The notes under the pieces were generated by a model, which ran no database searches, had not been told where the DNA came from, and worked only from the letters and a program-made list of their open reading frames with translations. DNA of 64,000 bases from Gammaproteobacteria bacterium (GTDB taxonomy: Bacteria; Pseudomonadota; Gammaproteobacteria; Chromatiales; Chromatiaceae): positions 62,001 through 126,000 of the forward strand of contig RZZN01000001.1 in assembly GCA_009929855.1 (NCBI GenBank). Direction: 5' to 3'. Shown piece after piece: positions 5,001 to 36,902 of this stretch. The position numbers and the translations under genes were made by a program. The stretch's first letter is position 1, and the number at the start of each line of letters is the position of its first letter.

Positions 5001-5003
5001 CCC

Positions 5004-5921
5004 ATGTCCAAGAATCGCGCGCGCGCACTGATCCGTCTCGGCCATTGGGGGCGTCCGCTCACGATCGCCATCCCCTATCTGTGGCTCGGCCTGTTTTTCT
5101 TGCTGCCCTTCGTCATCGTCCTGCAGATCAGTCTGGCCGAGCCGGCCCTCACTCAGCCACCCTATACCGCGCTCTGGCACTGGGTGGACGAGGGGCTGCT
5201 GGAGATCCGGATCAATCTGATGAATTTCCGGATGGTTTGGGATGATTCGCTGTATGCGAGCGCATTGCTCAATTCGCTGCGCGTGGCCGCGCTCAGCACC
5301 CTGCTCTGTCTGCTCCTGGGCTATCCCATGGCCTATGCGATCGCCACCGCGCCCGAGCGCTGGCGGGTGATCCTGCTGATGCTGATCGTGCTGCCCTTCT
5401 GGACCTCCTTCCTGATCCGGGTCTATGCCTGGATCGGGATCCTCAAGAGCCAGGGTCCCTTGAACGATCTGCTCTTGGCCCTGGGGCTGATCGAGACCCC
5501 CTTGACGATCCTGCACACCCAGACGGCGGTCTATATCGGGATCCTCTATTCATACCTGCCCTTCATGATCCTTCCGCTCTACGCCAATCTGAGCCGGCTC
5601 GACTGGAGCCTACTGGAGGCGGCCGCCGATCTCGGCTGTCGTCCGTTCGGCGCCTTCCTGCGCGTCACCCTGCCACTCTCGGCGGGTGGGATCCTGGCCG
5701 GGAGCCTGCTGGTGTTCATCCCGGTGGTCGGCGAATTCGTCATCCCCGACCTGCTCGGCGGACCCGAGACCCTGATGATCGGCAAGCTGCTCTGGACCGA
5801 GTTCTTCTCCAACAAGGACTGGCCACTGGCCGCGGCCTTGGCGATCCTCTTGCTCGGCTTGCTGCTCATCCCATTCGTGCTGATCCAGCGGCTCGAACAG
5901 CGTCTCGGGGGCCAGCCGTGA
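5004..5921 (+). CDS. potH: Polyamine ABC transporter permease PotH
   Basis: A 305-residue inner-membrane permease with six predicted membrane segments, the first at about 17-38. The cytoplasmic EAA coupling loop is visible as LLEAAADLGCRPFGAFLRVTLPLS. It has the long periplasmic loop after TM1 usual in PotB/PotH. It starts 3 bases after potG ends and overlaps potI by 4 bases (GTGA). Confidence 0.94.
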   Translation: MSKNRARALIRLGHWGRPLTIAIPYLWLGLFFLLPFVIVLQISLAEPALTQPPYTALWHWVDEGLLEIRINLMNFRMVWDDSLYASALLNSLRVAALSTLLCLLLGYPMAYAIATAPERWRVILLMLIVLPFWTSFLIRVYAWIGILKSQGPLNDLLLALGLIETPLTILHTQTAVYIGILYSYLPFMILPLYANLSRLDWSLLEAAADLGCRPFGAFLRVTLPLSAGGILAGSLLVFIPVVGEFVIPDLLGGPETLMIGKLLWTEFFSNKDWPLAAALAILLLGLLLIPFVLIQRLEQRLGGQP

Positions 5922-14878: not shown

Positions 14879-15290
14879 CCGAGACCTCGGGCCCGGCCCA
14901 GTCCGGTCGGTCGAAGGACTCGTCCTCCGCCGTGAGCTCGATCTCGGCGAGGACCAGACCAGCATTCGCGCCGGCGAAGACATCGATCTCCCACAGGTGC
15001 TCGCCGTGGCGCACCAGGTGACGCACCTTCTCGATGACCGGCAGACAAGTGAGTGTTTCCAGCATCTCGCGGGCATCCGCGAGTGGGATCTCATATTCGT
15101 ACTCGATGCGACTGACCCCAGTCGTCGCGCCCTTGATGGTCAGGAAACCGCGCCCACCCTTGACCCTGACCCGCAGGGTCAAGGGTCCAGACTCCACCAG
15201 ATAGCCTTGGAGGATGGTATCGCGACGCTCCACCGCCGCGCGCCAGGACTCGCCCTCCACCAGAAACTTGCGTTCGATCTCCACTGCCAT
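14823..15290 (-). CDS. CYTH-domain triphosphatase-like protein
   Basis: A 155-residue protein consisting of one CYTH (triphosphate tunnel) domain. The N-terminal EIERKF is the family ExExK motif (MAVEIERKFLVEG). Alternating charged strands follow (TLRVRVKGGRGFLTIKG, RIEYEYEIPL, VLAEIEL). Family members hydrolyse inorganic triphosphate or thiamine triphosphate, or make cAMP. ATG 15290 places the motif at the extreme N-terminus and follows a GGGGG stretch. It ends inside the next gene. Confidence 0.88.
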   Translation of the reverse strand: MAVEIERKFLVEGESWRAAVERRDTILQGYLVESGPLTLRVRVKGGRGFLTIKGATTGVSRIEYEYEIPLADAREMLETLTCLPVIEKVRHLVRHGEHLWEIDVFAGANAGLVLAEIELTAEDESFDRPDWAGPEVSDDPRYFNRNLASHPYTHW

Positions 15291-15328
15291 GATGTGACCC
15301 CCGATTTTGACTCCAGCCACCCGCGCGG

Positions 15329-16663
15329 TCAGCGCGCGAGGTCGCGCTCGAACAAGGCCATCGACTCCACATGAGCGGTCTGTGGAAACATGTCCATGAC
15401 ACCGGCGGCGACCAGCCGATATCCGAGACTATTGACCAGACGATCGGCATCGCGCGCCAAGGTCGTCGGATAGCAGGAGACATAGAGCACCTGCTCGGCA
15501 CCCAGGCGCGGGAGCCAGTCGAGCACCGCCAGCGCACCGCTGCGCGGCGGGTCGAGCAAGACCTTGGTGAAGGTCTCGCCCACCCAGGGCTCGGCGGCGA
15601 TCTGGCCAGCGAGGTCGGCGACATGGAAACCTGCGTTGGTGATGGCATTGGCGGTCGCGTTCGCCCGCGCCCGCGCCACCAGCCCGGCATCGCCCTCGAC
15701 CCCCACGACCTGCCCCGCCCGACGCGCGAGCGGGAGCGTGAAGTTACCCACACCGCAGAACAGATCGAGCACCCGCTCGTGCGGCTGGACATCGAGCAGC
15801 GCGAGTGCCTGATCCACCATGGCGCGATTGAGACCCAGGTTCACCTGGGTGAAGTCGAGGGGGGCGAAGCCGATGCGCAGATCCAGGCGCGGCAGCTCGT
15901 AATGCAGAGCGATGGCCTGACCTGGCAGCGCCCGGACCGTCTCGGGGCCACCCTCCTGCACATAGATGTGGAAGCCCTCGCGCGCGCCGAACCCGATCAG
16001 CGTCTCCAGATCGGCCTCGCTCGGCGGGGCGAGCACGCGAAAGACCAACACCGGTGGGGTATCACCGATCGCGACCTCGATCTGCGGGATGCGCTCGCGG
16101 ATGCTCAGGGTGTGGATCATGTCGGCGATCGCCGCGATGCGCTGGCCGACCGCCGGATGCAGCACCTCGCACACCTGCATGTCGGTGATGAAGGAGCCGC
16201 CGCGCTCGCGAAAGCCGACCAGTGTGCGACCCTTCTTGGCCACGTAGCGCACCCCGAGCCGCGCCTTGTGTCGATAGCCCCAGGCCTCGGCGGTCAGCGG
16301 CGCAAGCCAGGTGTCGGGCGTCACCTTGCCGATGCGTGCCAAGACATCCTCGAGACTCGCCTGCTTGGCGCGGATCTGCGCGCTCGCCGCCATGTGCTGG
16401 AGGCTGCACCCACCGCAGACGCCGAAGTGCGCGCAGCGCGGGGTCACCCGCTCGGGCGCGGCGCGCAGGACCTCGATCACCACGGCTTCGTCATAGCGGC
16501 GCTGGGTGCGCGTGTAGCGAAAGCGCACCCGCTCGCCAGCGAGCGCGCCATCGACGAAGACCGCCTTGCCTGCATGGTGTGCCAGACCGCGGCCCTCATG
16601 GGTGAGTGTCGTGATCTCGGCCTCGATCGGCTCGGTCGGGACTGGTTTGCGTTGACGCGACAT
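15329..16663 (-). CDS. rlmD: 23S rRNA (uracil-1939-C5)-methyltransferase RlmD
   Basis: A 444-residue enzyme that makes m5U1939 in 23S rRNA. It has an N-terminal TRAM domain (about 12-70), an Fe-S cysteine set in CAHFGVCGGCSLQHM (with a fourth Cys in QVCEVLHP), a SAM-binding stretch VLDLFCGVGNFTLPLA, DPPRSG, and the catalytic Cys in YVSCYPTTLARD. This is the RumA pattern rather than RlmC, which is shorter. It starts 15 bases after the cysM stop. Confidence 0.94.
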   Translation of the reverse strand: MSRQRKPVPTEPIEAEITTLTHEGRGLAHHAGKAVFVDGALAGERVRFRYTRTQRRYDEAVVIEVLRAAPERVTPRCAHFGVCGGCSLQHMAASAQIRAKQASLEDVLARIGKVTPDTWLAPLTAEAWGYRHKARLGVRYVAKKGRTLVGFRERGGSFITDMQVCEVLHPAVGQRIAAIADMIHTLSIRERIPQIEVAIGDTPPVLVFRVLAPPSEADLETLIGFGAREGFHIYVQEGGPETVRALPGQAIALHYELPRLDLRIGFAPLDFTQVNLGLNRAMVDQALALLDVQPHERVLDLFCGVGNFTLPLARRAGQVVGVEGDAGLVARARANATANAITNAGFHVADLAGQIAAEPWVGETFTKVLLDPPRSGALAVLDWLPRLGAEQVLYVSCYPTTLARDADRLVNSLGYRLVAAGVMDMFPQTAHVESMALFERDLAR

Positions 16664-22666: not shown

Positions 22667-22694
22667 GCGACAGCCGATCGGTGTCGAGTATAAT
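22667..22694 (+). promoter_or_regulatory. Sigma70-type promoter of the PLP decarboxylase gene
   Basis: The -10 box is a perfect TATAAT at 22689-22694. The -35 box is GCGACA at 22667-22672 (4 of 6 matches), 16 bases away. Initiation near 22701 gives a leader of about 35 bases before the GTG at 22736. It also argues against the in-frame TTG at 22694, which overlaps the -10 box. Confidence 0.65.
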
Positions 22695-22735
22695 TGACCG
22701 CCTCGAATGCTGGATGGTTGTCAGTGGAGCAAGCG

Positions 22736-24241
22736 GTGAGCTCGATGGACCCTTTGATCTTGTCGATCGCCGAGGCGGAGGCCGCGGCGAGGCCCTTGGA
22801 ACCGGATCGGAGGCAGCGGGAGGCGTGGCTGGGATCGGCCGCGCGGCTTGCGGGCGAGCGACTCGATCGACTCGATGAGCACCCGACCTATGTACCGGGC
22901 GAGCCGGTCGAGGAGATCCGTCGCTGGCCGATCAGCGAGCAGGGCAGGACGTTCGATGAGGTACTGCGGATCTTCTCCACCGTGGTGCTCGAGAACGGGA
23001 TCGATGCCGCCAGCGGCGGCCATCTGGGCTACATCCCCGGGGGAGGTCTCCAGGCCAGCGCCTTGGGTGATTATCTGGCGGCCGTCACCAACCGCTATGC
23101 TGGGCTCCATTATGCCGCGCCAGGCGCGGTGCAGATGGAGAACATGCTGATCGAGTGGATCCGGGATCTGGTCGGCTATCCCGCGAGCACCGCCGGTTAT
23201 CTGGCCTCGGGCGGCAGTCTCGCCAGCCTCTCGGCGATCGTCACCGCGCGCGACGCGCGTGCCAGTCGGGGCGAGCGCATCGCGCGCTCCGTCATCTATG
23301 GCTCGGCGCACATGCATCACTGTCTGCGCAAGGCCATCCGCATCGCTGGACTCGCTGAGGCGGTGCGTCGTGACATCGCCCTCGACGAGCGTCACAGCAT
23401 GGACCCCGCGGCCCTGCGTGAGTGCATCCGACATGACCGCGCACAGGGTCTCGAGCCCGCGCTGATCATCGGCTCGGCCGGCACCACGGACACCGGCGCG
23501 ATCGATCCATTGGATGCGCTCGCCGATCTCGCCGCCGAGCACGGGGCCTGGTTCCATGTCGATGCCGCCTATGGCGGATTCTTCATGCTGCTCGATGAGC
23601 TGCGCGAGCGCTTCAGCGGGATCGAGCGCTCGGACTCGCTGGTGATCGATCCGCACAAGAGTCTCTTCCTGCCCTCCGGCACTGGCGCCTTGCTGGTCCG
23701 CGATGGCCGCTTGCTGTTGGATGCGCATCACTACACCGCCAACTACATGCAGGATGCCTGGCACAGCGGTGACGAGCTCTCGCCCGCGGATCTGTCGCCC
23801 GAGCTGACGCGACACTATCGGGGTCTGCGGATGTGGCTGCCACTGATGCTCCATGGCACCGCGCCCTTCAAGGCCTGTTTACGGGAGAAGCTCCTGCTGA
23901 CCCGCTATTTCCGCATGCGCATGCGTGAGCTGCCCGGCTTCATCCTGGGGCCCGAGCCTGATCTCTCGGTGACCTTCTACCGTCTCGATACCCGTGATCC
24001 GGCGCTCGCCGATGTCGCCAACCATCGACTGGCCGAGGCGATTCGCGCGGACGGGCGGCTGTTCGTCTCCACCTCGGTGATCGATGGACGGGTCTTCATC
24101 CGCTTGGCCACGCTCTCGTTCCGCACCCATCGCCGCCATATCGATCTCTTGCTGGAGCTGCTGCGCGAGAAGGGGCGCGAGATCGCCGCGCGCTACCCGC
24201 TGCGCGGCGCGCCGGAGCGCACGCCATCGCCTGACGCATGA
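22736..24241 (+). CDS. Group II PLP-dependent decarboxylase (aromatic amino acid/glutamate type)
   Basis: A 501-residue enzyme of the DOPA/glutamate decarboxylase family. The PLP lysine is K308 in VIDPHKSLFLPSGTG, and D276 in FHVDAAYGGF pairs with the pyridine nitrogen. SGGSLASLSAI and the His-containing YGSAHMHHC complete the cofactor site. The start is GTG 22736, with GGAG six bases upstream; ATG 22745 is possible. It has its own strong promoter and stands alone, ending 30 bases before the convergent signalling operon. The sequence resembles bacterial aromatic-amino-acid or 2,4-diaminobutyrate decarboxylases, but the substrate cannot be read from sequence. Confidence 0.88.
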   Translation: MSSMDPLILSIAEAEAAARPLEPDRRQREAWLGSAARLAGERLDRLDEHPTYVPGEPVEEIRRWPISEQGRTFDEVLRIFSTVVLENGIDAASGGHLGYIPGGGLQASALGDYLAAVTNRYAGLHYAAPGAVQMENMLIEWIRDLVGYPASTAGYLASGGSLASLSAIVTARDARASRGERIARSVIYGSAHMHHCLRKAIRIAGLAEAVRRDIALDERHSMDPAALRECIRHDRAQGLEPALIIGSAGTTDTGAIDPLDALADLAAEHGAWFHVDAAYGGFFMLLDELRERFSGIERSDSLVIDPHKSLFLPSGTGALLVRDGRLLLDAHHYTANYMQDAWHSGDELSPADLSPELTRHYRGLRMWLPLMLHGTAPFKACLREKLLLTRYFRMRMRELPGFILGPEPDLSVTFYRLDTRDPALADVANHRLAEAIRADGRLFVSTSVIDGRVFIRLATLSFRTHRRHIDLLLELLREKGREIAARYPLRGAPERTPSPDA

Positions 24242-24271: not shown

Positions 24272-26203
24272 TCAGGCAGTGGAGGCCTGCCGCGGGGTCC
24301 GCGACGTCTCCTTGGCGCCATCGGACAAGGCGAGCATGCGTATGAAGTCTTCCACCGGTACCGGGCGGCTGAACAGAAAGCCTTGATACTCAGTGCACCC
24401 ATTGCGTGCCAGGAAGTCACGCTGCGCCTCGGTCTCCACCCCCTCGGCGATGACCGCCAGACCCAGACTATGGCCGAGTGCGATCACGGTGCGCACGATC
24501 GAGGCATCGTTGGCATCGGTGGTGATGTCTCGAATGAACGAGCGGTCGATCTTCAACTGGTCGATCGGCATCTTCTTCAGATAGGACAAGGACGAGAAAC
24601 CGGTTCCGAAATCATCCAACGCGAACGAGATCCCTCGTGATTTCAAGACGGTCATCTTAGCGACGACATCATCTGTATCGGTGGCCAGGATGCTCTCGGT
24701 CAGCTCGAGCTTCAACCGTCCTGGGTTGGCGCCAGTGGCGCGCAGGATCGACGTCACCTGATCCACGAAATCAGGCTGCTTGAACTCCTGGGCGCTGACA
24801 TTGACAGCCAAGAGCAGTCGACACAGACGTGGATCGCTCTCCCATGCCTTGATCTGCCTACAAACCGTCCTCAAGACCCATTGACCGATGGGTTGGATGA
24901 GCGCGGTCTCCTCGGCCAGGGGGATGAAGGTGGCGGGTGACACCATGCCCAAATGCGGATGTTGCCAACGCACCAGCACCTCAGCACCCATGACCACACC
25001 CCGGTGATCGACCTGTCCTTGGTACATCAACGCCAGCTCGTCTGGGATGCCATGGCGCAGCTGACTTTCGAGCGTGAAGCGCTGCTCGACCTGGATGCGC
25101 ATGCGATCACCGAAAAACTCGACCTGGTTGTATCCGGCCCGCTTGGCGGCGGCCAGTGCCAGGCTGGCATGCTTGAGCACATTGGCCGGCGCCTGCTCAT
25201 CACCTCCACACAATGAAATCCCAATCGATGCCTTGCACAGATATTGCTCATCACCGAGATCGAAGGGGCGCTGGATGGTGGAGAGCACATGATCGGCGCA
25301 GGCCATGGCCGACGCGATCGCCTGATCCCTGGTCGCACCGATGTCGGTGAGCAGGAGCGCGAATTCATCGGCACCCAAGCGCGCTAGACTGTCGCCGGGT
25401 CGGATCAAGCTCGCCAGGCGCTCGGCGATCCCGAGCAGCAGTCGATCGCCGCTGTCATATCCCTTGCTGTCATTGAGCAAGCGGAAGTCGTCCAGATTGA
25501 CGACCAGGATGGCGGCATGACAGCCTCCCTGGGCACAGGCCGCGAGTGCCGCGCTCAGTCGCTCGAGCAGTAGACGACGATTGGCCAGACCGGTGAGTCG
25601 GTCATAGAACTGCAAGTGATGCACGGTCTCGGTCTTGCGCTGGTTGTCGGCCTCCAGACGGGCGTTGAGCGTGGCGAGTTGATCCTGGGCGGCGGTCAAC
25701 AGCCGATTCTGCTCCAATGCATTGTCATAGATGGACAAGAGCAGGTCGAGCATCTGCTGCGGACCGGTGACCACCTCGACCCTTCCGCCATGCGCGGTGG
25801 CCCGCAAGCGGATCTTGGACTCGCGGGCGACCCCGCTTGGACGCGCCAGCGCCATGGCGACCCGCTCCAGCAACAGGGCGGTGTCATAGGGTTTGGCGAC
25901 ATAGTTGTCGGCTCCCGCGTTCAGCCCCTCGATCACATCCTCCACCCCGCTCATGGCCGTGAGCAAGATCACCGGGACCGAGTCCAGATCAGGGTCAGCG
26001 CGAATGCCGCGACACAGATCGAAGCCGTTCATGACCGGCATGGTGACATCGCTGATGATGAGATCGGGCCGGCTGGCGCGCGCCAGCTCGAGACCCTCGG
26101 CGCCGTCTCGACCGATGTTGATCTGGTGACCCTCCTCGACCAGCACCCGCCTGAGCATTTCGGCCTGTATACGGCTGTCTTCGACGATCAGAATGCGCGC
26201 CAT
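24272..26203 (-). CDS. Response regulator with GGDEF and EAL domains
   Basis: A 643-residue cytoplasmic c-di-GMP protein. Residues 1-120 form a receiver with D52 (DLIISDVTMPVMNG). A coiled linker leads to a GGDEF domain (about 205-370) with altered motif GADEF but an intact RxxD inhibitory site (RPGD). The EAL domain (about 385-630) reads EVLVRW instead of EALVRW, yet keeps NVS, ELTES, DDFGTG, LKIDRSF and AEGVE, all catalytic positions. It should act mainly as a phosphodiesterase, with the GGDEF half as a regulator. It is the last gene of the signalling operon, 83 bases after the previous stop. Confidence 0.93.
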   Translation of the reverse strand: MARILIVEDSRIQAEMLRRVLVEEGHQINIGRDGAEGLELARASRPDLIISDVTMPVMNGFDLCRGIRADPDLDSVPVILLTAMSGVEDVIEGLNAGADNYVAKPYDTALLLERVAMALARPSGVARESKIRLRATAHGGRVEVVTGPQQMLDLLLSIYDNALEQNRLLTAAQDQLATLNARLEADNQRKTETVHHLQFYDRLTGLANRRLLLERLSAALAACAQGGCHAAILVVNLDDFRLLNDSKGYDSGDRLLLGIAERLASLIRPGDSLARLGADEFALLLTDIGATRDQAIASAMACADHVLSTIQRPFDLGDEQYLCKASIGISLCGGDEQAPANVLKHASLALAAAKRAGYNQVEFFGDRMRIQVEQRFTLESQLRHGIPDELALMYQGQVDHRGVVMGAEVLVRWQHPHLGMVSPATFIPLAEETALIQPIGQWVLRTVCRQIKAWESDPRLCRLLLAVNVSAQEFKQPDFVDQVTSILRATGANPGRLKLELTESILATDTDDVVAKMTVLKSRGISFALDDFGTGFSSLSYLKKMPIDQLKIDRSFIRDITTDANDASIVRTVIALGHSLGLAVIAEGVETEAQRDFLARNGCTEYQGFLFSRPVPVEDFIRMLALSDGAKETSRTPRQASTA

Positions 26204-26286
26204 GGACCTGGTATCTTCGTCTGTCCGTTGTCAACGAGCCCGAGGCCGCGGGCGATGGGGTGGTTTCGCTCGCGGCTTGGGATGGA

Positions 26287-27741
26287 TCAGTGAGTGGAGC
26301 TCGTCTCCTCGGCCGTGCGAATGATGCGCGCGGCCAGCTCAAAATCGAACGCATCGAGTGCCGCGCGAAAGTCAGCCACCTGCTCGCGTAGGATGCCATC
26401 GTAGAGTGTCGGAGACTCGGCATACAGGGCCCGTGCCTGGAGATCACCCACCGCGAGGAGCTCCAGCATGAGGCTGACTGAGGCCGCGATCCGCGACCGA
26501 GCGGCGCAATCGAGCGGCGGATCCTCGTCGTCACACGGCTGGGCGATGGGGAGACGGAGACTGAAGTGGAAGCAGCTCCCGCGCCCCGGTGTGCTCTCGG
26601 CCCTCAGCGCACCCGCCATCAAGGCGATCAGACGCCAGCACAGCGCCAGTCCTAGACCGCTGCCACCATATTTGCGCGTGCTGGAGCCGTCGCCCTGCTC
26701 AAAGGGGCGGAACACCCCATTCAAGACCTCGGGGGCGATCCCGATGCCTTGATCGGCGACGGCGAAACGCACGGTCACGGCCTCCGCGTGTGTCGTCTCG
26801 CGCTCCACCCGCAGGTGGATGCTGCCACGATCGGAGAACTTGATCGCATTGTCGAGCAGATTGGACAGGATCTGATCGAGCCGCAACGCGTCGCCGCGCA
26901 GACGTGGCGGCACCTTGGGGTCGAGCTCCAGGATGAGTGTCAGACCCTTCGTCTCGGCCAGATCATGATAGCGCTCCATGAGACGCGCGCAGAGATTGCC
27001 CAGATCCAGATCGACGACCTGGAGCCTGAGACGATCGGTCTCGATCTTGGCGAGATCAAGGAGATCGTTGATCAGCTGCAAGAGCTGTCGCGAGGCCACC
27101 TCGATCTGTGACACCCGCGCGAGCGCGTCCGTGTCGCGCAGCTCGCGTTTCAGAAACCAGGACTGGCCAATGATCTGATTCATCGGGGTCCGCAGCTCAT
27201 GGCCCATGTTGGCCAGAAAGACGCTCTTGGCCCGGCTGGCCGCTTCAGCGGCGTCCCGGGCCTCCGCGAGCTCAGTGGTGCGCAACTGGATCTGCTCCTC
27301 GAGATGGTTGCGATGATCCGCGAGCTCGGCGTTGAGTGCCTGCAATGCACAGGCCCGCCGCCGCAGCTCCAGATGGAATGCGACACGGGCGCGCAGCACG
27401 GTTTGATTGACGGGTTTGTGGATGAAATCGACACCACCCTCCGCGAGTGCCCGTCGCTCGCTCTCGGCGTCGGTCCGCGCGGTCACGAAGATCACTGGAA
27501 TCTCGCGCGTGTCCTCGTTCTCCTGCAGGGTCGCGCAGAGCGCATAGCCATCCATCTCAGGCATCATGACGTCGAGCAAGATCAGATCGGGCAGCCGCCC
27601 CTTGGCGAGCAGAGCGAGCGCTTGGCGGCCCGAGGTCGCAAAGCTCATCTCGTAATCCTCCTCGAGCATGCCGAGCAGGATCTCGATATTGATCGGCGTA
27701 TCGTCGACGACCAGGATACGGGCTGGATCGGAGATGGTCAT
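26287..27741 (-). CDS. Hybrid histidine kinase with N-terminal receiver
   Basis: A 484-residue soluble protein. The receiver (5-125) has D57 (DLILLDVMMPEMDG). A coiled coil (about 130-170) follows, then HisKA with H181 (FLANMGHELRTPMN) and an HATPase domain (about 285-405) with N-box DNAIKF, DQGIGI and GSGLGL. The C-terminal 80 residues are helical and resemble the tail of the next kinase upstream. No membrane segment is present, so the signal arrives via the receiver. ATG 27741 overlaps the preceding stop (ATGA) with GGAG 7 bases upstream; ATG 27753 is possible. Confidence 0.92.
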   Translation of the reverse strand: MTISDPARILVVDDTPINIEILLGMLEEDYEMSFATSGRQALALLAKGRLPDLILLDVMMPEMDGYALCATLQENEDTREIPVIFVTARTDAESERRALAEGGVDFIHKPVNQTVLRARVAFHLELRRRACALQALNAELADHRNHLEEQIQLRTTELAEARDAAEAASRAKSVFLANMGHELRTPMNQIIGQSWFLKRELRDTDALARVSQIEVASRQLLQLINDLLDLAKIETDRLRLQVVDLDLGNLCARLMERYHDLAETKGLTLILELDPKVPPRLRGDALRLDQILSNLLDNAIKFSDRGSIHLRVERETTHAEAVTVRFAVADQGIGIAPEVLNGVFRPFEQGDGSSTRKYGGSGLGLALCWRLIALMAGALRAESTPGRGSCFHFSLRLPIAQPCDDEDPPLDCAARSRIAASVSLMLELLAVGDLQARALYAESPTLYDGILREQVADFRAALDAFDFELAARIIRTAEETSSTH

Positions 27742-29801
27742 GCCAGACTCCATCCCTGTTGCTCGGCCAGACGCCGCAGGTGCTTGGCGGCGGTCGCATA
27801 ATCGAGCCGATTGATCGCGGCGGAGATGCGCGTGTAGTCATCACGCAAGTCGCTGTCAGCGAACAGTGGCTCGATCTCGGCATTGAGTCGGCGCGCCTTG
27901 GCAAGACCATGCTCCAACAGGCGTAGGAGCTGGATCAACCGCGGCAGGAGTAAGACTGGATCGAGCGTCGCCGCGCGCTCATCGGCCGCGGCCGTGGTCG
28001 CGTCGCCAGACCGGGCGGACCTGTCCGCGCGAGACTCGCCCCCTGCCCCATCCCCCTGCGCGACGGCAACGATCGGCCCTTCGTGCACACCCAACCGGAT
28101 GGTGAACCAGAAGGTACTTCCCTGGCCCGGGGCGCTCATCAGACCGATCCGTCCACCCATCAGCTCGATCAGTCGCTTGCTGATGGCGAGACCCAACCCG
28201 GTACCGCCGTAGCGTCGGGTCATTGACATGTCCACTTGATGAAAGGGCGTGAACAACTGACTTTGCTGCTCGGGGGAGAGACCGATCCCGGTGTCGCTCA
28301 CCGACACGCGCAGGAGTCGGGTGCGCGCACTCGTCTCAGGGTTGAGAGGCAGCCTGCCCTCGGGCTCGGCCAGATCGAGCTTGACCAGGATCGCGCCGGT
28401 GGTGGTGAACTTCACGGCATTGCCAACCAGATTGTCCAGAATCTGCTGCAGCCGGAATGGGTCACCGACCAGGATCGGCGGGACCGCCGCGTCCACCCTG
28501 AACGCCAAGTCGAGCTGCTTGTCCTGAGCGCTCGACTCGAAGCGCAGCCGACAGGCCGTGATCAAATCCTCGATGCGCAACGGGATCGGCTCGATGCGCA
28601 GGACACCGGCCTCGATCTTGGAATAATCCAAGAGATCGCTCAACAACTCCAGCAAGGACATGGACGAGCTCTGGATCTGATTCAAATAGCCTTTCTGGCG
28701 CGCCGTCAGCTCATCGTCGAGGAGCAGCTGTGAGAGTCCGATCACCGCGTTCATCGGGGTACGGATCTCGTGACTCATGTTGGCCAGAAAGGCGCTCTTG
28801 GCCACATTGGCCGACTCGGCGGCCTGTTTCGCCTCCAATAGCTTGTGCGAGACCCGGCGCAGCTCGTTCTCGACCTCGACCCGATCGGTGATGTCCAGAC
28901 ACTGGTCGATATAGCCGATGCAGCGTCCGTCACTCGCATGACGGGGGGTCGCCGAGGCCCGCACCCAGCGGTAATCACCATCATGCTGGCGTAATCGATA
29001 GTCCAGACTGAAGGGCTCGCGCCGCGTGACATGTTGCGCGTAGACGGCGATGCAGCGTGCGCGGTCATCCGGATGAATGCTTTCGACCCAGTCTTGGTCG
29101 GTGCGCTCTTCCGGTGCCCAGCCGGTCAGATCACGCCAGGCCTGATTGGAATAGATGCAGCGGCGATCCAGATCCGAGATCAGGATGAGTGCGCTGCTGC
29201 TGTCGGCCAGGCTGCGCCAGGCATGCTCGCTCTCGCGCAGCGCCAGGTCGGCGCTGCGGTCGACCAGAACCAACAATGAGCGCTCTTCATGCACCGCCTC
29301 GGCGCGCAGGTGCATGACATGGACATCGCATGGCAGGCTCTGATCGGAGTCGAGCTTCAGACCGAGAAAATCCAGACTGCTGAGATCCGCGCCCGCGATG
29401 CCGCGCAACACCGGATAGAGCCGCGCACGACTCTCGAAGTCGAAGAGCTGGAAGATCGATCCATGTTGCAGCGCGGTGTTGCGACTCAGACCGAGGACCT
29501 CGATGGCCTGCCGATTGGGCTCGAGGATGAAGCCACGTCCATCCAGGAGCAGGGCTGGCACCGGCAGATGATCAAAGAGCAGACGATAACGCTCGAGGGC
29601 CACCGCGATCCTGTCTTGGGCCTGTGCCAGCTCCTCGTTCTGGATCTCCAGCTCGGCCTGATAGATCCGCAGCTCCTCGATCAGATGGAAGAGGTCGAAC
29701 CCGTGGGTGTCCACCCCATCGACCAGACTGATCCGGCTCTCGGCAATGGCCTGCTCGGCACGCTCACGCAGCTCTGTGAGATTGACCTTGGGGTGTTTCA
29801 T
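27738..29801 (-). CDS. Soluble PAS-PAS histidine kinase
   Basis: A 687-residue cytoplasmic kinase. A coiled N-terminus (LRIYQAELEIQNEELAQAQDR) is followed by two PAS domains (about 70-185 and 190-310, the second with a PAC segment ending in CLDITDRVE). HisKA has H344 (FLANMSHEIRTPMN) and the HATPase has DNLVGNAVKF, DTGIGL and GTGLGLAISK. The roughly 90-residue C-terminal tail is helical, preceded by an Ala/Arg/Asp-rich linker, and resembles a pseudo-HPt. It has no receiver; the next gene supplies one. It overlaps both neighbours by 4 bases. Confidence 0.93.
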   Translation of the reverse strand: MKHPKVNLTELRERAEQAIAESRISLVDGVDTHGFDLFHLIEELRIYQAELEIQNEELAQAQDRIAVALERYRLLFDHLPVPALLLDGRGFILEPNRQAIEVLGLSRNTALQHGSIFQLFDFESRARLYPVLRGIAGADLSSLDFLGLKLDSDQSLPCDVHVMHLRAEAVHEERSLLVLVDRSADLALRESEHAWRSLADSSSALILISDLDRRCIYSNQAWRDLTGWAPEERTDQDWVESIHPDDRARCIAVYAQHVTRREPFSLDYRLRQHDGDYRWVRASATPRHASDGRCIGYIDQCLDITDRVEVENELRRVSHKLLEAKQAAESANVAKSAFLANMSHEIRTPMNAVIGLSQLLLDDELTARQKGYLNQIQSSSMSLLELLSDLLDYSKIEAGVLRIEPIPLRIEDLITACRLRFESSAQDKQLDLAFRVDAAVPPILVGDPFRLQQILDNLVGNAVKFTTTGAILVKLDLAEPEGRLPLNPETSARTRLLRVSVSDTGIGLSPEQQSQLFTPFHQVDMSMTRRYGGTGLGLAISKRLIELMGGRIGLMSAPGQGSTFWFTIRLGVHEGPIVAVAQGDGAGGESRADRSARSGDATTAAADERAATLDPVLLLPRLIQLLRLLEHGLAKARRLNAEIEPLFADSDLRDDYTRISAAINRLDYATAAKHLRRLAEQQGWSLA

Positions 29802-32743
29802 GGAACAAGGACGCGCTGCCAGGTACTGATATTGATATGGCTGACCACCGCACCGAGGTCCTGATTCATCACTGGCGCGACATTCATCACGAACCAGCGC
29901 TCCTCGCTCGGTGAGTGGCAGGGATATTCCATGGAGAAGATCGGCATGCTGCCTTCGAGCACGGCGCGCAGACCACGATAGGCGGCCGTGGCATCCGGAT
30001 CGCTCTGCTCCAGCCCGGCTCGACAGACCTCCAGATAATTCGCCCCGGGACCGCTGCGGGTGAGCTGCTGGTCACCGTTGGCCTGCGCGAAACGCCGCCA
30101 GGCGGCGTTGACCATGACGATGCCTCCGCCATGATCGAGCACCGCGATATGCTCGGGCAGGGCATCGAGGATGGACTGCAGACGCCGCGCATCATGAAAG
30201 GCGGTCACATCCACGAAGGTCGCCACCACGCCATGGATCGTGGTCGATGGCACCAGATAGGGCAAGACTCTGATCAGATAGGTCTTCTTGTCATCGAGCG
30301 TGGCAACCTCGGTCTCGACCGGGCGCTGGGTGCGCAGGGTCTGCTGCAGATCCTGCATCAGATCGGGATAGCGCAGATTGTGCGAGATGTCATCGAGCGG
30401 TCGGCCAACGTCTGAATCGCGCAGCTTGAAGATCTGGGTGGCGTCTGGACTGAAGCGAGTGATGGACAGATCGGCGTCGAGAAAGATGGTCGCCACGCCG
30501 GCAGCCTTGGCCATGCTGTCGAGATCGGCATTGACACGACTGAGGACCAGCATCTTTTCCTGAAACTCGGCGTTGACCGTGCTCATCTCCTCGTTGACCG
30601 ATTGCAACTCCTCGTTGGAGCTCTGCAGCTCCTCATTGGAGGCCATCAGCTCCTCGTTGGTCGCTTGCAGCTCCTCGTTGGAGGTCTCCAGCTCCTCGAT
30701 GGTCGCTTGCAGACTCTCGCGGGTCGCCCCGAGCTCGCGCTCGAGGATCGAGACCCGGGCCATGGTCTCGGCACCCACGTCCAAGGGTGCGATCGCCGAC
30801 AGATCGCCATGGACCTGAGAGGTCTCGAAACACAGCAGGGTGAGCCGCTCATCGCTCTCGGTTTGCACCGGATGAGCGGAGAGACGAATGGTGCGACGCT
30901 CGCCGCTCTGCAAGGTCACGTCGATGAGATCGGACATGATCGATGTCCGGTCCCGAGCGGCCTTGTAGAGCAGCGCCGCCGCCACCGGGGTCAGACTCTC
31001 GGGCAGCAGACGATTGATCTCGAGGCTCGCCGCACCCTCGCGCGGATAGAGATAGGCATTGACATCGCCGAACAGATGGATCGCCTCGTGCTCATGATTG
31101 ACCACGATCGAGGGCGGGGCATATTGCGCGAGCAGGGTCGTCATGCCCGCGTGCGCGACCGTACTGTCGCTCGAGCGCCGGCGCGTCTTGGCCAGCTGCG
31201 GCGTCTTGCTGGTCACCGGGACTGGGTAGCTGCCACTGAGCTTGCGCTCGACGAATGGCAATGACATGGGACCGACACGCCGAAACAGCTTGTGCTTGGC
31301 GCTGATCGTCAGCAGACCCTCGGTCACCGCCGAGAGCGACTCGCTGGAGCCCAGCAACAGGACCCCGCCATCGCGGATCGCGTATTGCAGCGAGCGCAAC
31401 GCATGCTCCTGGGCCGGCGAGTTGAAATAGATCAGCGTATTGCGACACACCACCAGATCCATCTTGGTGAAGGGTGGATCGGCCAAGAGGTTGTGGCGGG
31501 CAAAGACGATGCACTGGCGCAGCTCGTTCTTGATGACGAAGCGGTCATCCTTCTTCACGAAGAAGCGCTCCAGACGCTCGGGCGAGAGCTCGGCGGCGGC
31601 CGATTCGGGATATTGACCGACACCCGCGGTCTCGATGCATTGCTGATCGACATCGGTGGCGAAGATCTTCAAGTTGGGCCAGCGCCGTGCGCGCTCGAAC
31701 GCCTCGATGAAGAGCATGCCGACACTGTAGGCCTCCTCGCCGGTGGCCACCCCGGCGATCCAGACCCGAATCGTCTCCCCCAGCGGCTTCTCCGCGACCA
31801 TCGGTCCGACCACTTGCTCGCCCAGCACCGCGAAGGTCTCAGGGTCGCGAAAGAAGCTCGTCACCGAGATCAACATCTCGCGCCTCAGGGTGATGATCTC
31901 GTTGCGGTCATGCTCGAGCAGATCGTAATACTGATAGAGCTCGGGGGTATGACGGACCTGCATGCGCCGGTCGATGCGGCGCATGACGGTGGTCGGCTTG
32001 TAATCGGAGAAGTCGATCCCGCCGACCTGATGGAGTAGGCGCAGCAGGGCCGCCATCACCTCCTCGGTCGTCATGGTGGCATGCGGGACCAGCCTCGGCC
32101 TGGTGACCTCGAGCTCCTTGTAGGGCAGATTGTGGATATGGGCGGAAAGTCGTGCCGGGATCTCCTCGGCCGGCAGGATGGCATCCACCAAGCCGGTTGC
32201 GATCACGCTGCGCGGCATGCCATCGAATTTCGCCGATTCGGGCTCCTGAGCCATGAGGAATCCGCCGGCCGCGTTGATGGCCACCGCCCCCCGGGTGCCA
32301 TCGGTGCCGGTTCCGGAGAGAATGATACCGACGGCGTGGCGGTCATAGACGTCCGCCAACGAGGAGAAAAAGATATCGATCGGCAGGGTCAGACCGCGCG
32401 GGTTCTTCGGGGTCAGGTGCAGGTGCCCCTTGGTCACGTGCATGATCGCCCCCGGCGGAATCAGATAGACCTGATTGGCGTCGATCTGCAGGTCGTCCTC
32501 GACCATGGTCACCGGCATCTCGGTATGCCGCCCCAAGAGGGTGCTCATCATGCTCTTGTGATCGGGCGAGAGATGCTGCACCACCACGAAGGCTGCCCCG
32601 AGATCGATCGGACACGACTTGAAAAATTTCTCGAGCGCGTCGAGCCCACCGGCGGAGGCGCCGATGCACACCACATAGCCATCGAACGGCTGCTGCGCGG
32701 TTTCGGGCAGGCGGCTCCCTCTCGGCTGGATGGCCTTTTTCAC
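29798..32743 (-). CDS. CheB-CheR fusion with coiled coil and PAS domains
   Basis: A 981-residue fusion. A CheB methylesterase domain (about 20-205) has S30 (GASAGG), H57 (VVQHLSPDH) and D148 ([12 protein letters not shown]) but no CheB receiver. A CheR methyltransferase domain (about 220-490) has the SAM motif [15 protein letters not shown] and [11 protein letters not shown] long coiled coil of NEEL heptads (about 675-720) follows, then two PAS-like domains (about 735-850 and 855-975). Such fusions are known, usually next to hybrid kinases, but their targets are mostly unknown. No chemoreceptor gene lies in the window. GTG 32743 overlaps the upstream stop. Confidence 0.93.
30582..30694 (-). 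repeat. Coding repeat: NEEL heptads of a coiled coil
   Basis: About five imperfect copies of a 21-base unit encode successive heptads such as SNEELQA and SNEELQS in the CheB-CheR fusion. The DNA repetition follows from the coiled-coil code and is not a mobile or regulatory repeat. Confidence 0.8.
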
Positions 32744-34203
32744 GTCTTGTTCTCCGCATCTCCCGGCTGAACATCCCCCCGAGGCAGCAGATACTCGAAG
32801 AATTCCCGATCCGATCTCAGCATGTGGTGAGCAACCATATCGTGTGCAAGAAACTGAAACAGCTCGCCGATAGCCAAGGACCCCGCGCGAAAGCGCGCCA
32901 CCAGGTCATGGGCGCGCTCGAGCAACGCGCGATGGATGGCGCGGTGATGGTCCGCCCCCGGGAATCCAGCGGCCGTGAAGATGGCCTCCTCGTCGTTGAA
33001 ATGACGGATCACATCGCCAATCAGGGTCTCGACCAGACGGGCAACCTCGGCGAGGGGTTGGGCCGCGAGCATGGCGCTCAGGAGCCGATTGGTGTCATCG
33101 AACAGACCGCGATGTTGAGTATCGATCACAGGATGGCCGCATGCATAGCTCTCGCGCCAGTAAAGCTGCACGAAATTCGCCGCGACATGCTCGCCCAGAC
33201 CGGCGCGGCGCGGTTTCTCCGGCGCGATCTGGACCTGGTCGCGCCCCCCGGCCTTGGCGCGATGCAGCGCGGCATCGGCGCGCTTGAGCCAATGCTCCCA
33301 GGACTCTCCGGGCATGCATTCGGCCACCCCGATGCTCACGGTCAACCGCTCCACTGGGGTGAAGTCGCTCTGGGCGATGACCTCCCGTAGACGCTCGGCC
33401 ATCATGGTCGCGGCCAGGAGGGTCGCGTTCGGGGCGAGCACGATGAATTCTCCCCCACCCCACCGGGCGAGCGAATCCAGGTTGCGGATCCGCGACATGA
33501 CCAGTGATGCCAAGCGCGCGAGCACCTGGTCGCCCACCCCGTGACCGTGGCGATCGTTGATCAGCTTGAGGCAATCGATATCGAGGATCATGAGACTCAG
33601 CGGATGATCATAGCGGCGCAGACGCTCGATCTCCCCGAGCACGACCTCCTCCAGATGGCGGCGGTTCCAAACGCCGGTCGGCTTGTCGATGCGGACCAGG
33701 CGATCGAGCTCGTGGCGGGCATGGAGCAGGGCCTGCTCGAGCAGCCCCTGCTGCCACTTGGCCGTGCGCAGCGCAAGCAGGGTGCGCAGGCGCGCGCCCC
33801 AGACCGCCGCGCGGTCACTCTTGGATAGGATCTCGGTGGCGCCGGCCTGCACGGCCCGCTCGGCATCTACTGGATCGGCGGCTTGCATGCAGTAGATGAC
33901 CGGCACCTCCAGCCAGGCCGGATCGGCCTTGAGCGTGCGACAGCAGCTCAGTGCATCTGGATCCGACAGGCCGTCATCGAGCAGGATCAAGGCGGGCGGC
34001 GTCCCGCTGCGATCCAATGCCGAGAGATCAGGCACCGCTTGGATGGCGAGCCGCGGGATCCCGACCAGCACCCTGCTCAACCACTCGCGCGCGGTCGCAT
34101 CAGCACTCATCAGCAGGATGCGTGTCTCCTGCGGCGATGAGTCCAGGCGCATCGGATCATTCGGATCATTCGGATCTAGGGCGCGGCTGGGATGCGTCTT
34201 CAC
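32740..34203 (-). CDS. Receiver-like / GGDEF / hemerythrin protein
   Basis: A 487-residue protein, first in the signalling operon. Residues about 25-145 form a receiver-like domain (LILLDDGLSDPD) with a reduced acidic pocket. The GGDEF domain (about 165-330) has motif GGGEF with an intact RxxD site (RNLD). The third position is Gly (GGA), one base from the Glu codon GAA, so cyclase activity is doubtful. A bacteriohemerythrin domain (about 345-470) has VIDTQHRGLF, HFNDEEAIF, HHRAIHRALL and HMLRSD, giving the di-iron His/Glu/Asp set expected for O2 sensing. GTG 34203 has GGGAG 6 bases before it and lies downstream of a TATAAT box. Confidence 0.9.
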   Translation of the reverse strand: MKTHPSRALDPNDPNDPMRLDSSPQETRILLMSADATAREWLSRVLVGIPRLAIQAVPDLSALDRSGTPPALILLDDGLSDPDALSCCRTLKADPAWLEVPVIYCMQAADPVDAERAVQAGATEILSKSDRAAVWGARLRTLLALRTAKWQQGLLEQALLHARHELDRLVRIDKPTGVWNRRHLEEVVLGEIERLRRYDHPLSLMILDIDCLKLINDRHGHGVGDQVLARLASLVMSRIRNLDSLARWGGGEFIVLAPNATLLAATMMAERLREVIAQSDFTPVERLTVSIGVAECMPGESWEHWLKRADAALHRAKAGGRDQVQIAPEKPRRAGLGEHVAANFVQLYWRESYACGHPVIDTQHRGLFDDTNRLLSAMLAAQPLAEVARLVETLIGDVIRHFNDEEAIFTAAGFPGADHHRAIHRALLERAHDLVARFRAGSLAIGELFQFLAHDMVAHHMLRSDREFFEYLLPRGDVQPGDAENKT

Positions 34204-34261: not shown

Positions 34262-34267
34262 ATTATA
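34262..34267 (-). promoter_or_regulatory. Candidate -10 box of the signalling operon
   Basis: A perfect TATAAT on the minus strand lies about 59 bases before the GTG start of the hemerythrin-GGDEF gene. A weak TTGCGA lies 19 bases upstream of it. An in-frame ATG overlaps this box, which supports the downstream GTG as the true start. Confidence 0.45.
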
Positions 34268-34448: not shown

Positions 34449-36902
34449 TCAGCGATGCTCGATCGGCCTGGACGGGGGGCCGAAGAGATAACCTTGAGCC
34501 CAATCGATCCCGAGGCTCGCCATGAAATCGGCGGACGCCTCGTCCTCGACGCGTTTGACGATGGTCATGATGCCAAGTGAGCGGGCGCCATGCTGGATCG
34601 CGGCGAGGACCGCTCGCCCACGCGGCGATTCCATGGCCAGGCGAATCAGCTCCAGGTCCAGGATCAGGAAACTGACCGGCAGGTCGGCGACCAGGCGCAA
34701 CGAGGAGTGCGGACCACCGAAACCCGCGAGGGCCAGACGGCAGCCGCGCTCGAGCAGGGGGGTCAAGACCTCGACGACCCGACCTGGGTTGGCATCGACC
34801 AATGCCTCCGTGATCGTCAGGACCAGCGGTGTCGATGCGGCCGTGGGCAAGCGTTGCTCGATCGTCTCGGCCAGTGTAGCGATCTGCTCCGGATGTCTGA
34901 GCAGCGCATCCGAGATATGCACGAACTGAGGCAACGGCACGCCCGATTCCAGGTGACGCATGCGCCCGAGTGTATCCTCGAGCAAGAGCCGATCGATCTC
35001 ATGCAAGAGATCGAAGCGTCGCGCCACATCGATGAATGAGGCCGCGGGCAGCACCGAGCCGTCGGGATTGGTGATCCGCGCCAGGGTATCCTCGGCGACG
35101 AGCGCGCGATCCTGAAGCGCGACGATGGGTTGCACCGCCGACCAGACCCGGGCTTGATGGACCGCGTTAGCGATCAGCCGGGCGAACGTCGAGCGCTCGG
35201 CGCTGAGATCGCTGCTGCGCAGGACCCGATTCCGGCCCTCGCGTTTGGCCTGGTAGAGTGCGCGATCGGCGCGACTGATCACGTCATCGGCCGTCTGGTC
35301 GGTGCGCGCGCAGGCCGCTACGCCGCCACTGAAGCTGATCCTCAGACCTTGATCGAGGGCGGTGATGCGGTGCGCGTCGACCAGTGCGCGCAGGCGCTCC
35401 ATGACACCCCAGGCCTGCTCCTCGGTCGTCAATGGCATGAGCAGGATGAGCTCCTCGCCCCCCCAGCGTCCGAGCCAGTCACCTTCGCGTAGGCTCGACT
35501 TCAGCAAGGCGGCGATGCGCTTGAGCACCTCATCGCCGACCTGATGACCGTGACGATCGTTGATCCACTTGAAATGGTCCAGATCCAAGATGGCGATGCA
35601 ATAACCTTGCGCGGCACGTCTGCAGTGGGCATGGACATGGAGGATCGCATCCCAGATGCCACGCCGATTCAGCAGCCCGGTCAGTTGGTCGTGATCGGCC
35701 TGAAACATCAGCTCGAGCTCGGCCGTCTTGCGCGGGGTGATATCCAGATGGACCCCCGCGGTACGGATCGCGGTGCCGTTGGTGGCGCGCTGAAAGACCT
35801 TGGCGAAATCCTGGATCCACACCCAATGGCCATCACTGTGGCGCATGCGATATTCGGCCGCGAAGCGATCGGATTCGCCGCTCAGGATCGGCCCACCGAG
35901 TGCCTGCACGGCCTGGAGATCATCCGGGTGAACCTTGTCGCGCCACCAATCGAGCGGGTACTCGAGCCGCTCTCCAGGATATCCCAGCATGGCCAGATAA
36001 CTCGGGCTGACACGGACTCGGCCGCTCGCGAAATCAGCCGAATAGATGCCGATGCCCCCGCCTTCGATGGCCAGTTGAAGGTGTCGCGTGATCTCCTCGT
36101 GCGCCAACTCGGCAAGCTTGCGCTCATGGATGTCGCGCCCGACACCGATGATCGCCTGGATCTCTCCCCGCTCATCCAAGACCGCCGAGTCCGACCAACC
36201 AAACCAGCGCCAGCCCAGCGCCGTGACAGTGCGCTGCTCGACATGACAATGATGCGGCGGCTGGGACAGGGTCTCCAGCGCGGCCACGGCGCGGTCACGG
36301 TCATCCTCGTGCAGCAGCGCCAAGAGGTCCCGCCCGAGCAGCGCCTCGGCCGGCTCGCCGAGGACACGGCAAGCGCTCGGACTCACGAACAGCATGCGTC
36401 TTTGGCGATCGAGCATGATGATCATGTCCTGCTGTTGCTCGACCATCATACGGTAGATGTCATCGCTGCCGCGCACTGACTCGACCGGCCGGCGCGGCCG
36501 ATCCAGATCCAGATCACGCATGCACACCACGGCCAAGGCCGAACCGCCCGACTCGACCCACTGGATGCGCACCGCGACCTCGGCGAGACGGCCGTCGCCG
36601 CACCGCTGCTGGGTGATCAGATCCTGAGTCGGTCGCTCGTGCAAGCTTCGCCAGCGCGCGCTCCAACATGCAGGGTCGCAAGCAGGCTCCAGGTCGGTCA
36701 TCCGGAGCTGGAGGAGCTGATCGAGCCGGTAACCCAAGTCACGACAGATCGCCGCACTGGCATAACGAATGCGGCCCTCGGCATCGCACAATAGGAGCGA
36801 CTCGCACCCACGCGCGCCGCCGCAGCGGTCGTGCTCGGCGGGGGCGTCGCGGGTCGGGCAATGGATGGATGTGACGATCGGGGCCTCACTGGATCGCTGC
36901 AT
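34449..36902 (-). CDS. PAS-PAS-PAS-GGDEF-EAL protein, EAL degenerate
   Basis: An 817-residue cytoplasmic protein. It has three PAS domains (about 30-130, 145-265 and 270-390, the last two with PAC ends DIHERK and DITPRK). The GGDEF domain (about 395-560) has GGEEL and the inhibitory site REGD five residues before it, so it is probably active and product-inhibited. The EAL domain (about 575-815) has EDTLAR where EAL is expected and GFGGPHSS in place of DDFGTG, so it cannot bind the catalytic metals. The net activity should be c-di-GMP synthesis tuned by the PAS inputs. It is transcribed towards the signalling operon, with a 245-base gap. Confidence 0.92.
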   Translation of the reverse strand: MQRSSEAPIVTSIHCPTRDAPAEHDRCGGARGCESLLLCDAEGRIRYASAAICRDLGYRLDQLLQLRMTDLEPACDPACWSARWRSLHERPTQDLITQQRCGDGRLAEVAVRIQWVESGGSALAVVCMRDLDLDRPRRPVESVRGSDDIYRMMVEQQQDMIIMLDRQRRMLFVSPSACRVLGEPAEALLGRDLLALLHEDDRDRAVAALETLSQPPHHCHVEQRTVTALGWRWFGWSDSAVLDERGEIQAIIGVGRDIHERKLAELAHEEITRHLQLAIEGGGIGIYSADFASGRVRVSPSYLAMLGYPGERLEYPLDWWRDKVHPDDLQAVQALGGPILSGESDRFAAEYRMRHSDGHWVWIQDFAKVFQRATNGTAIRTAGVHLDITPRKTAELELMFQADHDQLTGLLNRRGIWDAILHVHAHCRRAAQGYCIAILDLDHFKWINDRHGHQVGDEVLKRIAALLKSSLREGDWLGRWGGEELILLMPLTTEEQAWGVMERLRALVDAHRITALDQGLRISFSGGVAACARTDQTADDVISRADRALYQAKREGRNRVLRSSDLSAERSTFARLIANAVHQARVWSAVQPIVALQDRALVAEDTLARITNPDGSVLPAASFIDVARRFDLLHEIDRLLLEDTLGRMRHLESGVPLPQFVHISDALLRHPEQIATLAETIEQRLPTAASTPLVLTITEALVDANPGRVVEVLTPLLERGCRLALAGFGGPHSSLRLVADLPVSFLILDLELIRLAMESPRGRAVLAAIQHGARSLGIMTIVKRVEDEASADFMASLGIDWAQGYLFGPPSRPIEHR

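Follow-up and report, generated by a model that had tools for sequence, protein, structure and literature searches.

The five signalling genes A-E of a purple sulfur bacterium, all encoded on the minus strand of the window (the whole 64,000-nucleotide stretch of DNA analysed), contain a conserved core that consists of gene B, which encodes a CheB-CheR-PAS-coil-PAS-PAS protein, followed by gene C. We suggest, at a probability of roughly 0.4, that B methylates its own coil in order to adapt, signals via C, and in this genome feeds c-di-GMP turnover. The PAS domains of B would sense a cytoplasmic state, and its CheR and CheB domains would attach methyl groups to, and remove them from, glutamates of the heptad coil joining PAS0 to PAS1, thereby resetting the sensitivity of B in a manner similar to chemoreceptor adaptation, without a chemoreceptor. 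The signal would then pass from B to C through the N-terminal coil-PAS of C, the output of which is exchangeable and is here a histidine kinase that would phosphorylate the REC-kinase D. Either directly or via D, C would act on the receiver of E and alter c-di-GMP breakdown. In this scheme, we infer the self-methylation, the contact between B and C, the direction of phosphotransfer and the c-di-GMP output.

The A/B, B/C and C/D junctions each overlap by 4 bp (GTGA, ATGA and ATGA), which argues for co-translation, and the C/D overlap grows to 16 bp when D is started at its first ATG. The overlap of 4 bases that the earlier note gave for four of the genes is correct for A-D but does not extend to E, as a gap of 83 bp without overlap separates D from E. 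The highest 19-residue Kyte-Doolittle mean across the five proteins is 1.69, within the EAL domain of E, so that all five look soluble, as had been claimed. A sixth gene on the same strand, gene F (36902-34449, minus strand; PAS-GGDEF-EAL), is located 245 bp upstream of the GTG start of A and 185 bp upstream of its longest frame. Domains of the operon genes were called with Pfam and NCBIfam, and a Pfam search covering A-F and the decarboxylase identified no MCP signalling domain, CheA or CheW. The earlier description holds in that the genes form a signalling operon, run in one direction, for the most part overlap and include no chemoreceptor, which had left the CheB-CheR target open. Of the sites given by a scan for promoters and terminators, four are promoter-like and lie without exception on the plus strand, and seven are terminator-like, versus a shuffled mean of 4.5.

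Gene B (29798..32743, minus strand) encodes CheB, CheR, a cryptic PAS0, a coil, PAS1 and PAS2, as assigned from Pfam, motifs, an AlphaFold model and Foldseek. The CheB methylesterase domain (residues 25-199; 32147..32671, minus strand) contains S30, H57 and D148 and has no REC domain ahead of it, and is followed by the N-terminal and SAM-binding domains of CheR (residues 231-480; 31304..32053, minus strand). The Ser-His-Asp positions of CheB and the GEE motif of CheR are invariant across 44 B proteins, among which the lowest identity is 40-51% over CheR or CheB. Both enzymes thus have intact catalytic residues as judged from the sequence, unlike typical pseudoenzymes. PAS0 (residues 518-652; 30788..31192, minus strand) was missed by Pfam but is recognizable in the AlphaFold model, where this stretch has a mean pLDDT of 86. 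Among the 50 Foldseek matches listed, with query TM-scores of 0.40-0.58, 49 are PAS, LOV or sensory-box domains, some classed by title and others presumably so, and the remaining match is the WalK extracellular domain.

The coil (residues 667-731; 30551..30745, minus strand) is a near-invariant, putative methyl-accepting element located in a single predicted helix that spans residues 656-746 of the AlphaFold model. It contains six Glu-Glu pairs placed exactly seven residues apart, from 683 to 718, and no other part of B is as conserved, with a mean pairwise identity of 0.95 over residues 682-720, compared to 0.74 for CheB, 0.67 for CheR, 0.58 for PAS1 and 0.55 for PAS2. Where residues are identical, their codons are identical too in 57% of cases within the coil versus 50-52% elsewhere. 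Since the codons vary nearly as much as in the rest of the gene, selection acts on the protein, and a DNA-level effect was rejected as the cause of the conservation. Of 104 B-type frames, counting copies, 99 contain chains of 4 to 8 Glu-Glu-type pairs at a spacing of seven, and these represent 38 distinct chains; most have six pairs (81 frames), the others seven (13), four (4) or eight (1). The chain-finding rule fixes the b and c residues and leaves the f position and the length of the chain free. The five frames that lack a chain are L003 and L118, which are cut by the fetched stretch or were picked in another frame, L090 and L092, which end before the coil, and the distant fusion L103, in whose short coil at most two pairs are in register. 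The 2544 other segments include two with three pairs and three with six pairs; reduced to distinct sequences, those with six are truncated copies of B-type genes (L116 and L117). In the 93 genomes searched, a coil match is located inside or adjoining all 71 CheB-CheR matches, and 83 of the 88 coil matches fall at CheB-CheR matches.

B and its coil appear to resemble the chemoreceptor adaptation system in several respects. The predicted CheR and CheB chemistry is present in B, and the Glu-Glu pairs recur every seven residues. In a register that we assigned by placing Leu at d and Asn at position a, the pairs would fall at heptad b and c, with small residues at f. In chemoreceptors, the usual methylated position is heptad c, according to the relevant section of PMC6829392, which also provided the methylation consensus used for comparison. 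However, the coil has no match to the strict consensus, with four matches to half of it and six to a relaxed version, and its e position is Gln, Glu or Met where the consensus wants a small residue. The two MCP frames of the same genome contain one strict match each. Moreover, MCP, CheA and CheW are absent from the scanned genes, and the coil has no detectable homology to MCPs, as the PDB sequence matches and the 25 Pfam families listed contain only generic coiled coils; homology to MCP helices was rejected among these matches.

These differences also bear on a rather unlikely explanation, in which CheB and CheR serve as scaffolds or bind ligands and the coil is a dimerization and signal-transmission helix, its surface held constant through contacts to CheB-CheR or C, with no methylation cycle. 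Failure of the strict consensus is in line with this, and helical linkers are common between PAS domains and their outputs. A coil-PAS-kinase protein (L137, genome G085) retains the coil, and neither CheB nor CheR was found by a single-sequence search of its 5.5-kb stretch; likewise, neither was seen in L139, a 3.4-kb contig end. Both relatives, like the missing strict consensus and the short coil of L103, count against self-methylation of B. However, a scaffold would not be expected to keep catalytic residues that are near-invariant in the 44 sequences even at the lowest identities. The invariance of the coil could alternatively come from partner binding rather than modification.

It is highly improbable that B instead tunes the ordinary chemoreceptors of the cell and thereby couples chemotaxis to the operon, even though its CheB and CheR domains resemble the chemotaxis enzymes and an MCP match is present in 66 of 76 other fusion-bearing genomes, in 65 of them above the family cut-off. 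The other ten genomes have no MCP match, and three of these consist of one or two contigs with 99-100% completeness. The 76 genomes were taken from 86, and eight of the ten omitted are less than 90% complete. The genome under study has two MCP matches and four CheR domains, of which two are located in fusions and the other two lie 1.5 and 2.7 kb away from MCP genes, so that each MCP gene lies near another CheR. In Phaeobacter inhibens, expression of a CheB-CheR gene was unchanged in mutants where all eight che genes fell, according to the part of PMC12363192 that deals with this gene. Because of the CheR placement and the MCP-less hosts, MCPs are unlikely targets of B and were set aside as its main target, which makes the coil a good candidate, on sequence grounds, for what the enzymes of B itself modify.

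B belongs to the broad class of CheB-CheR fusion proteins, as it has both domains in one chain with intact catalytic residues, and a heptad coil and then PAS after CheR. It differs from the class in that it contains PAS0 and PAS2 besides PAS1, has no kinase in the same chain, and is usually neighboured by a C gene with exchangeable output. An Azospirillum CheR/CheB fusion is reportedly the subject of an earlier paper. Our literature search found no described substrate for the class and no paper on the B-C pair, the latter being weak evidence of absence as subscription journals were mostly outside the search, and a search with coil fragments retrieved only two clinical papers without relation to the topic that contained "atneel" by chance.

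Gene C (27738..29801, minus strand) encodes an N-terminal coil-PAS partner module, a second PAS domain and HisKA-HATPase. The partner module (residues 1-190; 29232..29801, minus strand), which consists of the EELRIYQAELEIQNEEL coil and PAS, is kept beside B with its output swapped. Of the 43 distinct loci fetched, which are those most like B and include L085, a second copy in the same genome, 39 have a C-type partner beside B that retains the N-terminal coil-PAS; the four loci without a partner, one of them from Thiohalocapsa, count against the proposed scheme. The output is a kinase, a kinase-receiver, GGDEF-EAL or none, and requires only five changes on the 40-row B tree, suggesting that exchange is repeated but not constant. 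CheB-CheR fusions occur in 59 of 299 Pseudomonadota genomes in an evenly drawn sample, and 59 of 115 partner-module matches are located within 6 kb of a CheB-CheR match, where about one was expected. More distant fusions pair less often, with a partner match within 6 kb for 50 of 71, since the 43 loci were those closest to B. No relative was found on viral contigs.

The pairing could also mean that B is a dedicated enzyme that modifies C in trans, with the N-terminal coil of C (EELxxYQxELExQNEEL) as the substrate. Consistent with this, the coil-PAS module is kept beside B through the output changes, and its motif ends in NEEL, like the coil of B. However, the C coil contains only one or two Glu-Glu pairs, the last of which is often replaced (NDEL, NQEL, NHEL), the called frame of L056_C begins past the coil, and the motif is gone from L065_C. 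Furthermore, the open frames of single-chain relatives extend to 1350-1900 amino acids, judged by frame length alone and irrespective of content past the coil, and these may need no separate partner. The near-invariance also belongs to the coil of B and not to that of C, and we consider modification in trans unlikely.

The downstream genes encode the parts of a phosphorelay: the C and D kinases contain a phospho-acceptor His and an ATPase domain, and the D and E receivers a phospho-acceptor Asp. Gene D (26287..27741, minus strand; first ATG at 27753) was assigned as REC-HisKA-HATPase by Pfam, and gene E (24272..26203, minus strand), from Pfam and motifs, as REC, a GADEF-type GGDEF domain and EAL. 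By the motif rules that we assume for GGDEF and EAL domains, here and for A, the GADEF-type domain is probably not a cyclase, whereas the EAL motifs look complete and E is a probable c-di-GMP phosphodiesterase. The link to E and c-di-GMP, which we infer, depends on a gene found only in this genome.

Gene A (32740..34203, minus strand) encodes a degenerate REC domain, a GGDEF domain with GGGEF and an RxxD site, and a C-terminal hemerythrin domain, as assigned from Pfam, NCBIfam and motifs. The GTG at 34203 was the start chosen in the earlier note, and the longest frame begins at 34263. Pfam GGDEF and Hemerythrin score above their cut-offs and Response_reg below, and TIGR02481 is above and NF033749 slightly below. 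By our reading of the sequence, the REC domain lacks the usual acidic pair. The hemerythrin domain contains the expected His/Glu/Asp ligand motifs. Because the REC domain is degenerate and GGGEF replaces the intact GG(D/E)EF, diguanylate cyclase activity is doubtful. The VcBhr-DGC of Vibrio cholerae, a hemerythrin-regulated diguanylate cyclase according to Table 3 of PMC8846402, also fuses hemerythrin to GGDEF, and judged from that entry A differs in its degenerate REC, its GGGEF motif and the C-terminal position of its hemerythrin.

The genome searches used strict E-value cut-offs, and per genome at most nine candidates were scored for B, 17 for A and D, and 13 for E. Among the candidates scored in the 93 genomes, full-length relatives outside the genome itself were found neither for A (E <= 1e-50) nor for E (E <= 1e-110), and no A match was located on a contig with a B match in any other genome. 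The order of all five genes thus looks private to this genome, and the five-gene order was not supported as a conserved system, as no full-length relative of A or E was found in the 92 other genomes at these cut-offs. The proposal of one conserved five-gene pathway was not borne out. Uniqueness of the order to this strain, which the earlier note had named as grounds for refutation, applies to A and E but not to B, C and D, as D follows B-C in several Chromatiaceae. Oxygen sensing via hemerythrin, suggested as the input, finds no backing outside this genome and is a local guess. Apart from the one in the window, hemerythrin domains occur in at least two B neighbourhoods (L053 and L063) among the 48 fetched, neither adjoining B, and others may be missed since a single-sequence scan found L053 but not L063. 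With seven hemerythrin matches in this 4.8-Mb genome, we estimate this to be roughly the level of chance, and hemerythrin was discarded as a recurrent neighbour of B.

The five genes may in part have been stacked by chance in a signalling-rich genome, with only B and C, and perhaps D, cooperating, a somewhat unlikely explanation that is compatible with the others. The confinement of full-length A and E matches to this genome fits such stacking, as do the GGDEF and EAL candidates, dozens in each genome, that the A and E searches listed at first. The overlapping junctions from A to D speak against it, as does the D-type receiver that stays beside B-C in relatives, including a near relative in a sister lineage (a Thiosymbion MAG), where REC is kept and the output is GGDEF.

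The built-in, near-invariant candidate substrate makes the question of the CheB-CheR target directly testable. Tentatively, and at somewhat less than an even chance, we suggest that CheB-CheR fusions across Pseudomonadota have a methyl-accepting coil built in and use it to adapt two-component and c-di-GMP signalling driven by PAS domains, often via an output-swapped partner, such that reversible glutamate methylation would not be confined to chemoreceptors. If true, methylation-based sensory adaptation would extend from chemotaxis to kinases and c-di-GMP enzymes.

The five genes A-E, proposed in the earlier note as a signalling operon, indeed form one, all lying on the minus strand at 34203-24272 (start 34263 by the longest frame) in this 4.8 Mb draft genome. 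They encode a protein with degenerate receiver, GGDEF and hemerythrin domains (A), a CheB-CheR-PAS protein (B), a PAS kinase (C), a receiver-kinase (D) and a receiver-GGDEF-EAL protein with an apparently complete EAL domain (E). The 4-bp overlaps described there hold at three junctions but not at E, which is set off by 83 bp. Upstream of A, gene F (34449-36902, minus strand) encodes a PAS-PAS-GGDEF-EAL protein that is probably a cyclase only, because, by the usual motif rules, its GGEEL motif is intact and its EAL domain degenerate (AGFG instead of DDFG). A PLP-dependent decarboxylase gene (22694-24241, plus strand) is convergent with E and ends 30 bp from the end of E.

The idea of a conserved five-gene order was not borne out in a search of 93 genomes, the own genome and 92 relatives (E <= 1e-50 for A and E <= 1e-110 for E), and the order looks local from these matches. 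For A, a full-length match occurs solely in the genome it comes from; the six further matches, spread over four genomes, span GGDEF and in some cases hemerythrin as well, and no contig with one of them bears a B match. Matches to E outside the own genome are restricted to the GGDEF-EAL part. D has close relatives in Allochromatium warmingii (G035), adjoining B and C, and in Thiohalocapsa marina (G047), adjoining a partner-type gene on a different contig from B. In locus L063, from an uncultured bacterium of a lake, a hemerythrin-GGDEF gene (14857-15969, minus strand) lies near the B-C pair, two genes past the start of C on the opposite strand. In a different locus, L053, a lone hemerythrin gene (4831-5286) lies about 2.3 kb upstream of the B frame. 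In four Chromatiaceae loci (L040, L041, L057, L059), a divergent kinase-type gene occupies the place of A upstream of B.

What is conserved is the pair of B and C. The nearest relatives of B include the Chromatiaceae Allochromatium, Thiohalocapsa and a Candidatus Thiosymbion MAG. Loci were fetched by similarity to B (28) and as longer stretches (20, including a second own-genome copy); 46 of the 48 contain a CheB plus CheR gene, and three are repeated contigs, leaving 43 distinct. The downstream gene carries the N-terminal module of C (residues 1-190, the partner module) in 39 of these, and lacks it in L062, L068, L081 and L082. The output following the module varies among the 40 pairs, window included: GGDEF-EAL (20), kinase-receiver (10), kinase (8) or none (2). 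These types are borne out by Pfam scans of ten neighbours, of which eight are C-type partners. On the B tree, output type requires five changes against a minimum of three, with deep placements unsure owing to several long branches. The partner module is matched in 28 of the 93 genomes, 24 of which also have a CheB-CheR match, as against 5 of the 65 others (Fisher p 1.7e-13, with independence overstated by kinship among genomes). Of 115 partner matches, 59 are no farther than 6 kb from a CheB-CheR match (about 1 expected); seen from the CheB-CheR side, 50 of the 71 matches have a partner module at that range. The other 56 modules lie farther away, and the module is therefore not exclusive to CheB-CheR neighbourhoods. 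In the Thiosymbion MAG (L066, 10836-13093, plus strand), the C-type gene contains PAS modules only and the D-type gene is a receiver-GGDEF.

The CheB and CheR domains of B can be aligned to solved chemotaxis enzymes and retain the catalytic residues. No receiver domain precedes CheB in B, and so CheB is probably not switched by phosphorylation. Residues 518-652 have no Pfam name, and the structure model predicts a PAS domain there, with a mean pLDDT of 86. Of the 50 Foldseek matches listed, 49 belong to PAS, LOV or sensory-box entries, the TM-scores being modest (0.40-0.58). Residues 656-746 form a single predicted helix, in a model whose domain arrangement is not reliable given its pTM of 0.36; two further PAS domains come after the helix.

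The helix contains a coil with a 39-residue core that is the best-conserved part of B at the protein level, not the codon level. It is also present in distant fusions retrieved with a CheB-CheR-only query, where an NEEL coil occurs in 26 of 29 loci, including L103, whose short coil lacks three pairs in register; the frames of L090 and L092 stop ahead of the coil, and L102 contains the Glu-Glu pair chain. Across the 93 genomes, each of the 71 CheB-CheR matches contains a coil match or has one no more than 600 bp away, and conversely 83 of 88 coil matches are so placed relative to a CheB-CheR match. The remaining five comprise L136 and L138, with CheR or CheB-CheR, the weak match L140, and L137 and L139, at which no CheB or CheR was seen. 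L138 (935-5501, plus strand) has a divergent CheB-CheR-coil gene, below the cut-off of the B search, followed once more by a partner-module kinase. The protein encoded at L137 (723-2990, minus strand) consists of coil, PAS and kinase, and its 5.5-kb stretch showed neither CheB nor CheR; it may be a derived form, or else indicate that the coil has a role without these enzymes.

Setting the register by Leu at d and Asn at a puts the Glu-Glu pairs at heptad positions b and c, which are usually exposed and variable in coiled coils. The B coil has no match to the strict methylation consensus, since Gln, Glu or Met occupies heptad e; four sites fit half of that consensus (EExx with two small residues) and six fit a relaxed form. 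The two own-genome chemoreceptor (MCP) frames have one strict match each. PMC6829392, which gives the adaptation-site consensus, places the usual modified residue at heptad c. The likeliest single account is that B methylates its own coil, to which we give a probability of about 0.4. An absence of any methylation is one main rival, favoured by the unmatched strict consensus and opposed by the retained catalytic residues, and an improbable one.

Chemoreceptors are unlikely targets, judging by the gene content of fusion-bearing genomes. In the own genome, both MCP matches have a separate CheR nearby, at 1.5 and 2.7 kb, whereas the two fusions are located elsewhere. An MCP match is present in 66 of 76 other fusion-bearing genomes (65 above cut-off) and absent in ten that are 91-100% complete (G007, G009, G041, G053, G116, G141, G161, G228, G260, G363), of which G161 and G228 consist of one contig each and G041 of two. 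The coil is present in all seven of these ten for which a locus was to hand.

The other main rival, that B modifies C, would accord with their pairing and leave the conserved coil aside; we consider it unlikely, slightly more so than no methylation. Under self-methylation of the coil, B would pass its signal to C, a step suggested by the conserved pairing. CheB-CheR fusions are already known; to our knowledge, within the literature searched, the coil as a candidate substrate, fusion hosts without MCPs and a B partner with exchangeable outputs are new. In the own genome, the kinase C, the receiver-kinase D and the receiver of E with its apparently complete EAL domain make a change in c-di-GMP the likely output, and the receiver-GGDEF of the Thiosymbion MAG and the GGDEF-EAL of half of the C-type partners point likewise to c-di-GMP.
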